Of a stretch of DNA of 64,000 nt, positions 13,696 through 28,379 are shown piece by piece (the stretch's first letter is position 1; each line of letters begins with the position of its first letter). The position numbers were made by a program, and so were the translations under genes. Location of the stretch: NCBI GenBank assembly GCA_938073905.1, contig CALJEN010000002.1, positions 1 through 64,000 on the forward strand, in the 5' to 3' direction. This DNA is from an uncultured Sulfolobales archaeon. Its GTDB lineage: Archaea > Thermoproteota > Thermoprotei_A > Sulfolobales > NBVN01. A model generated the notes under the pieces. That model had not been told where the DNA came from. It saw only the letters and a list, made by a program, of their open reading frames with translations, and did not search any database.

Positions 13696-13860
13696 GGAGG
13701 GCCGACCGGCGGGGAACCGCGGGGCCGAGGCCTCCCCGTACATCTTAGTCACCTTCCTTAGCACGCCAAGCAGTGCGTGCCGAAGGGTTCGGCTGCAGCT
13801 CCTAAATAGTAAACTTTATATACTTCTCCCCAACACTACATGATGGCGGGATAGGCGCGC

Positions 13861-14005
13861 CCGGTATGTGGCGAAGCGAGTAAGCCGAATGGGCACGCTA
13901 TGAGGCGCTCGATGTGGGGTGCTTTACCGTTGCCCCCGAAAGCCACCGAGGCCTCCGAGGCCGAGGTGGAACGCGTAGTCACGAAGTGTTGACTACGCGA
14001 CAACG
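13861..14005 (+). ncRNA. candidate structured RNA / intergenic element, copy 1
   Basis: TATA-like TTTATATA at 13814-13821; shares GAYGTGGRGTGCTYYACCGTTGCCCCCG and a downstream GAGGCCTCC...TGGAACGC block with 28069..28204 (-); ends in a perfect 10-bp hairpin CGCGTAGTCA...TGACTACGCG. Confidence 0.45.
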
Positions 14006-14007
14006 GT

Positions 14008-27595: not shown

Positions 27596-28078
27596 CTAGG
27601 GCTCTACGTCGAACGGGAGCTCGAGCAGCTTTTTCGCTTGGCGGAACCTGGCCTTGCCCAGCCTTATCCTCCCCACGGGGCCTATCGAGGGGAGGTGCTG
27701 CTTGCTGCACGCGTTCACGTTCCACACACTCCCGTCCTTCTCGCGGATTACGACTACGTAGAGCTCCCTCACCTCCTCGGGAACCCTGAAGAGGTCGTAT
27801 ACCGCGTCGCCGTAGACCCTCTCCGCCTCCTCTCTCGGCATCCTGACCACCTCGACCCCGAGGTCTTCGGCTATCTTCGCGTTCGCCAAGTCCTCGATGG
27901 CCTTGAGCTCCTCCTCGGTGGGCTTCCTATCGAACTGGACGACGAGCCTCCCGTGCTTCCCCTCGACGTAGGTCGAGGCGGTCCACATAGCGCCCTCGCC
28001 CAGGATCCTGACCACGGCTCCCTTTATGACGTGGAGGGCCGTGTGCGTTCGGACGTCGTCTGGGTACAGTTGCCACAC
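27596..28078 (-). CDS. alaX: AlaX-type alanyl-tRNA editing protein (start uncertain, 28078 or 28087)
   Basis: THTALHVIKGAVVRILG (HxxxH) and WNVNACSKQHLPSIGPVG (CxxxH). Confidence 0.85.
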   Translation of the reverse strand: MWQLYPDDVRTHTALHVIKGAVVRILGEGAMWTASTYVEGKHGRLVVQFDRKPTEEELKAIEDLANAKIAEDLGVEVVRMPREEAERVYGDAVYDLFRVPEEVRELYVVVIREKDGSVWNVNACSKQHLPSIGPVGRIRLGKARFRQAKKLLELPFDVEP

Positions 28079-28204
28079 GGCTACCACTCGGTGGCTAAGC
28101 GTTCCATCCCCGGCCCGGGAGGCCTCCGGGGGCAACGGTGGAGCACTCCACGTCCCGGGTCCCCCTCCGACGCCCCTCGGTGCTAACCTTCCACCACACA
28201 CCGG
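28069..28204 (-). ncRNA. candidate structured RNA / alaX leader element, copy 2
   Basis: Nucleotide similarity to 13861..14005 (+); CCGGTGTGTGG...GTGGAGTGCTCCACCGTTGCCCCCG...TGGAACGC...GGCAAC; TATA-like TTATAT upstream near 28260-28265. Confidence 0.45.
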
Positions 28205-28379
28205 ACACACTGACAACCCTTCCACGGTCCCTTCACTACTACGTGGCGCGGGAAGGAACATATAAGGCTATGCTATTCAGGGACAGCCGTTATGTCCTTT
28301 CGGGTCGAGCATCTCGGGCCCACAGTTCCTCGAGGGGCCCCGAGCAAGGATATAAGCCTCGTCGACCACCGGCTCGGCG

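Follow-up and report, generated by a model that had tools for sequence, protein, structure and literature searches.

A mobile element derived from IS607 within the alaX gene of a Sulfolobales archaeon, and the start signals it is likely to have supplied

In the window (the whole stretch of 64,000 nucleotides analysed here), the tRNA-editing gene alaX lies on the minus strand, in the gene order pyrB, pyrI, alaX, and a divergent surface-protein gene. Directly upstream of alaX is a repeat at 28069–28265(−), which the preliminary description had matched to a copy 1 at 13785–14006(+). That homology is confirmed, as are the TTATAT at 28265–28260, the in-frame GTG codons at 28087 and 28078, and the passage of the 3′ end of the element into the AlaX frame, to which it supplies possible starts. 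The repeat is longer than first noted: its true extent is 28295–28067(−), reaching from a GG at 28297–28296 to a core at 28068–28067, and its match to covariance model R1 is well above chance (67.6 bits, E = 1.9e-11). The features, in the direction of alaX transcription and followed by copy 1, are these:

28350..28355, minus strand: native alaX TATA box (TTATAT), aligned with AATAT at the same place in the nearest congener, genome G006
28277..28312, minus strand: stranded native alaX start (ATG CTC GAC CCG AAA GG, continuing into the element), from alignment to the uninterrupted G006 locus
28296..28297, minus strand: left-side GG core dinucleotide (target), from the GG pattern of the family and the GG crossover of IS607 (PMC10711439)
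28067..28295, minus strand: IS607-derived non-autonomous element (MITE), spanning left end through right core, from alignment with other genomic copies, left-end (LE) and right-end (RE) boundaries, and the full IS607, and from the R1 match
28260..28265, minus strand: TATA-like box within the left end, likely the present alaX promoter, aligned with MITE CTTTATATAC and with CCTTATATAC upstream of the full-IS607 tnpA
28168..28210, minus strand: remnant of the tnpB zinc-knuckle codons (CPVCGGRLAP) with stem SL-A, in the same frame as TnpB
28067..28138, minus strand: terminal guide-RNA (reRNA)/right-end module CCGTTG...CAACTG, from alignments A1–A3 and pair counts
28101-28074, minus strand: terminal hairpin, degenerate in the alaX copy
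28076..28087, minus strand: candidate new starts GTG 28087 and GTG 28078, within the right end
28067..28068, minus strand: right core, TG rather than GG when set against the family
28047..28066, minus strand: putative guide position if the alaX copy still made a reRNA, that is, the first retained alaX codons (TACCCAGACGACGTCCGAAC), from its position relative to RE and the passage of IS607 reRNA beyond RE (PMC10711439)
27596..28066, minus strand: retained alaX body (YPDDVRTHTALH...FDVEP), 85% identical in amino acids to that of G006
13785..14006, plus strand: copy 1, a complete young-subfamily MITE with LE and TATA box, SL-A, 3′ module, and GG at both ends

What had been called a second copy is instead one of about 39 dispersed copies detected in the 1.3-Mb genome by a covariance model built from the element family, a count that is a lower bound, as several tnpB matches lie at contig ends and the assembly breaks at these elements. 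DNA search finds 24 similar places in the same genome. Copy 1 is 98% identical to the young-subfamily query (model E 1.0e-24), whereas the alaX copy differs by about 23% from the consensus of its own, older subfamily and reaches little more than half the model score of the young copies (129 bits). The 19-mer GTGGTAGCCGTGTGGCAAC is the alaX copy's own variant, other copies reading TGTTGACTACGCGACAACGG, and a search of the 64-kb window allowing up to three mismatches finds it only once. LE is preceded by GG and RE terminates in GG in almost all well-preserved copies, and the first flanking base to the right of RE is T in most copies. The 24-nt downstream flanks all differ among the copies, and no target motif beyond GG can be read from the flanks.

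Three of the copies extend upstream into a TnpB gene, and one of these is a complete IS607 on the same contig (C2, about 135.3–137.2 kb), comprising left end, TnpA, TnpB, and right end. Its TnpA combines a MerR helix-turn-helix with a serine recombinase (Resolvase 5.9e-24, MerR 9e-12), and its TnpB carries a TNB domain (2.5e-15) and is matched by sequence to Cas12f and TnpB proteins of solved structure; the same CAACGG followed by T also terminates relatives of this TnpB from other archaea. In the solo copies, ~58 nt from the start of the left end—with the TATA box that precedes tnpA—are fused to two segments from the 3′ region of tnpB. One consists of the zinc-knuckle codons; the other comprises the final ~105 nt, presumed to be the scaffold of the TnpB guide RNA together with the right end. 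LE and RE align with those of the copy that holds both TnpA and TnpB, and GG cores lie at both ends in the family (GG on the left and TG on the right in the alaX copy). IS607 is known to cross over between GG dinucleotides with a fixed right-flanking base (PMC10711439). Judged from these alignments, the repeat family is a non-autonomous, MITE-like IS607 derivative that has lost tnpA and tnpB. The preliminary description had found a motif common to a free RNA and an mRNA leader, and that sharing exists because both originated as copies of a single mobile element derived from IS607.

Within the full IS607, the tnpB reading frame meets no stop codon (TGTCGA in place of TGTTGA; L041:4672 onward) and passes through the right end into flanking DNA. 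The same full IS607 lies inside or against a 5′-truncated second tnpB (L041:1821–2807), the other half of which was not found adjacent. At L042:3020–3455(−), the C3 tnpB element has a short ORF at the position of tnpA that, by eye only, resembles two ribbon-helix-helix-type repeats.

Among described systems, the IS607 elements with TnpB and reRNA—ISXfa1 (PMC10711439) and ISFba1/RAGATH-18 (PMC11061315)—are alike in their MerR-helix-turn-helix and serine-recombinase TnpA, TNB-domain TnpB, GG core, reRNA running past the right end, and fixed right-flanking base (here T in most copies), but the element at alaX lacks both genes. Closer in form are the IS607-related MITEs reported in 2009 from Staphylothermus marinus, of about 260 nt and 14 copies, which are similar to the flanks of IS607 ORFs and disrupt two ORFs; the paper describes them as MITEs only and not as carriers of guide RNA (PMC2678158). 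A complete genome from the same order but another family (G048) yields 11 model hits with compensated helices (loci L127, L130, L133, and L135–L137), in which the layout of SL-A and 3′ module is the same and the sequence differs; these are probably the published S. marinus MITEs. Ends-only IS200/IS605 derivatives (PMC7290912), including the PATEs of Haloquadratum (PMC3119063), are likewise short, consist of ends only, and are presumed to be moved in trans, but they depend on a Y1 transposase and have no GG core. The Coxiella QMITE1 and QMITE2 also are MITEs that carry promoters, give rise to small RNAs, and insert in frame into ORFs; they are, however, bacterial and unrelated to the present element, and the paper saw none acting on the 5′ end of a gene whose function is known (PMC5896051).

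At the alaX locus, the nearest congener has the same gene order as the window and no element, and the element is absent at alaX from all same-genus relatives. With the element removed and one base added, the window sequence can be aligned gap-free with G006 over the interval between the native TATA box and the conserved RTHTALH, apart from one small gap just on the downstream side of the TATA box. In the window, ATG 28312 (CTC GAC CCG AAA GG) runs into the element, and TAC CCA GAC GAC GTC CGA ACG follows it; the native start now yields an 11-residue peptide ending at TGA 28279–28277. As the G006 locus is element-free and the excised sequence aligns to it, the element is placed as having entered alaX at about codon 6, separating the native promoter and ATG from the rest of the gene. 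Once the element is cut out exactly, the alaX frame lacks one base, which requires a one-base change at or after insertion; the least complicated account is that the stranded stub suffered a small deletion. The element, probably moved in trans by the IS607 TnpA, inserted at the GG at this point in this lineage, after its split from the nearest congener, and thereby cut alaX off from its own promoter and ATG.

The retained gene is still under constraint. Against G006, dN/dS is 0.11 for AlaX, as compared with 0.16 for pyrB, 0.28 for pyrI, and 0.22 for the surface gene, and the polarised amino acid changes number 11 on this branch and 9 on that of G006, with 4 ambiguous. The insertion is probably old, given the ~23% divergence from the subfamily consensus, and the gene has not decayed since. 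Constraint on the AlaX body makes expression from element-borne signals probable: AlaX is probably expressed from the TATA box in the left end of the element and translated from an in-frame GTG or TTG within it, which would give a replaced N terminus of a few to ~50 residues. Alternatively, alaX may be an intact-looking pseudogene silenced by the insertion. Its native promoter and start are severed, standalone alaX occurs in 14 of the 31 genomes searched (AlaX is thus dispensable in its family), and AlaRS has an editing domain of its own; with so many family members lacking the gene, silencing retains a minor share of the probability. Against it stand the open frame free of stops, the similar numbers of changes on the two branches, and the long time that the divergence of the element suggests has passed since insertion, and overall we regard it as rather unlikely.

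Which start would serve expression from the element is less narrowly fixed than the preliminary description had it, in which GTG 28087 and GTG 28078 were the only plausible ones. No stop interrupts the AlaX frame upstream as far as ATG 28261, the open stretch crossing the element in the TnpB frame, and further in-frame GTG or TTG codons lie at 28225, 28216, 28210, 28201, and 28135. An N-terminal extension with a zinc-ribbon-like motif had also been considered, and VCPVCGGRLAPRG does prove to come from the TnpB zinc ribbon, of which it is the first half (the chromosomal TnpB reads CPVCGGRLAP). A domesticated, functional TnpB-derived extension beginning at GTG 28225, 28210, or 28201, or at ATG 28261, would make use of the frame that stays open through the element and into AlaX, and of in-frame starts downstream of the predicted promoter, some of them with Shine–Dalgarno-like bases upstream. 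Nonetheless, a single CxxC pair of the ribbon remains, the extended protein has no Pfam domain, the extension is unique to this genome, and ATG 28261 lies upstream of the transcription start expected from the TATA box of the element; such domestication is unlikely. AlaX of G006 opens with MSGSGDHRDEVRTHT and that of other relatives with, for example, MSRPEDYPDEVRTHT or MPRPEDYPVEVRTHT; in general the relatives begin M-x(4-5)-YPDEVRTHT. The comparison of AlaX N termini that had been called for therefore finds neither element nor protein extension conserved, and a conserved zinc-ribbon extension is rejected, as half of the ribbon only is present and no orthologue has the extension.

The family as a whole has features of a structured RNA. 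The well-preserved copy L010 has a fold of −76.3 kcal/mol over 162 nt (z = −3.0), in which the SL-A stem is joined by a second hairpin and by a terminal domain where CCGUUG/CAACGG encloses two hairpins. Covariation is found in the terminal helix, the terminal hairpin, and the zinc-knuckle stem: the closing helix becomes CCGUUC/GAACGG in genomes G048 and G039, four pairs of the hairpin show double changes, and the stem in the tnpB zinc knuckle, located in tnpB genes through protein homology, shows more pairing than shuffled sequences do (p about 0.005, uncorrected for relatedness). Such pair counts use a structure named from the best copy and hence lean towards it, and the covariation alignments hold related sequences fitted around one fold; RNAalifold on the mixed alignment, degraded copies included, gives a poor consensus. 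Position and sequence place the scaffold of the family from the tnpB 3′ end to RE, with a variable guide after it. In genomes G000 and G048 alike, the solo copies have SL-A and the terminal module but not the tnpB stretch between them, and we read these two parts as the RNA-forming segments of the TnpB guide RNA; the hairpins could in part be sites for the transposase at the DNA level instead. Rfam searches at strict and relaxed E-values give no relevant match, RAGATH-18 included, and the 64-kb window contains no tRNA.

A mostly 7–8 bp stem in the tnpB zinc-knuckle codons covaries across archaea (L041:4457–4500; loci L147–L161). This stem suggests a guide-RNA scaffold that extends far into the coding part of tnpB; scaffold and coding sequence overlap here, whereas the reRNA of RAGATH-18 is described as separate (PMC11061315).

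The alaX copy shares little of this order. SL-A pairs at 6 of 8 positions, a partial stem compared with 8 of 8 in most other copies, the core and terminal hairpin are broken, and the fold is no better than that of shuffles (z = +0.47), so that the copy has not retained the structure. The part of the preliminary description that proposed an RNA structure thus stands for the family, and the part that proposed a structured 5′ leader or riboswitch controlling AlaX translation, and a role as an independent free RNA for copy 1, does not stand for alaX. The element does sit directly upstream of alaX in the right orientation and behind a TATA box, and it belongs to an RNA-structured family; it is, however, missing from all orthologues, is among the worst-preserved copies, has ~38 counterparts at unrelated places, and finds no match in Rfam, and a leader is so improbable that we reject it on the element-free orthologues.

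The alaX copy might instead still be an active guide locus, with alaX codons as the guide of its reRNA, so that TnpB would cleave element-free alleles and thereby fix the element. Homing by TnpB and reRNA is established for other IS families. The order of left-end promoter, scaffold, RE, and guide is intact in the alaX copy, and the TnpBs of the genome keep, by sequence, their RuvC residues. The scaffold end is mutated in both core and terminal hairpin, however, the fold is weak, and the low model score sets the copy apart from the young ones; continued guide activity is very unlikely, and the alaX copy is probably inert as a guide. Our preferred reading, to which we assign a probability of about 0.9, is that a solo IS607 derivative inserted in alaX, stranded the native start, and likely supplied the replacement signals.

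For the better-preserved copies, a working TnpB guide RNA is inferred. Each putative solo guide gene would consist of its own left-end promoter, a trimmed scaffold made of two tnpB RNA parts, and its own guide. We offer as a tentative and rather unlikely proposal that some 30 such tnpB-less guide-RNA genes serve a shared pool of TnpB in trans, each defending its own insertion site, and that alaX has been rewired onto the promoter and start of one of these elements.

The TnpB proteins at L041:3479–4671(+) and L042:1793–3027(−) are 40% identical overall, and in DNA their last 25 codons (~75 nt) and right end are 99% identical, with upstream blocks mostly at about 50–65%; the boundary of similarity is sharp and falls at CCGTTG. 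This pattern looks like exchange of an RNA/right-end cassette: TnpBs so different carry the same right-end module, as though that RNA end could be swapped between them.

MITEs linked to IS607 (PMC2678158) and ends-only IS605 derivatives (PMC7290912) are already known, and the alaX case is a further example. Here, the puzzle of an RNA common to a free transcript and an mRNA leader resolves into a transposon insertion, one whose uninterrupted site exists in a relative and which appears to have given a tRNA-editing gene a rewired 5′ end. Of more interest, though unproven, are the tnpB-less guide-RNA loci as a set. It is suggested that archaeal IS607 MITEs are more than transposon ends and are tnpB-less guide-RNA genes that retain the RNA-forming segments of tnpB, including a covarying stem within the zinc-knuckle codons, whereby the action of solo reRNAs in trans with a shared TnpB becomes directly testable.
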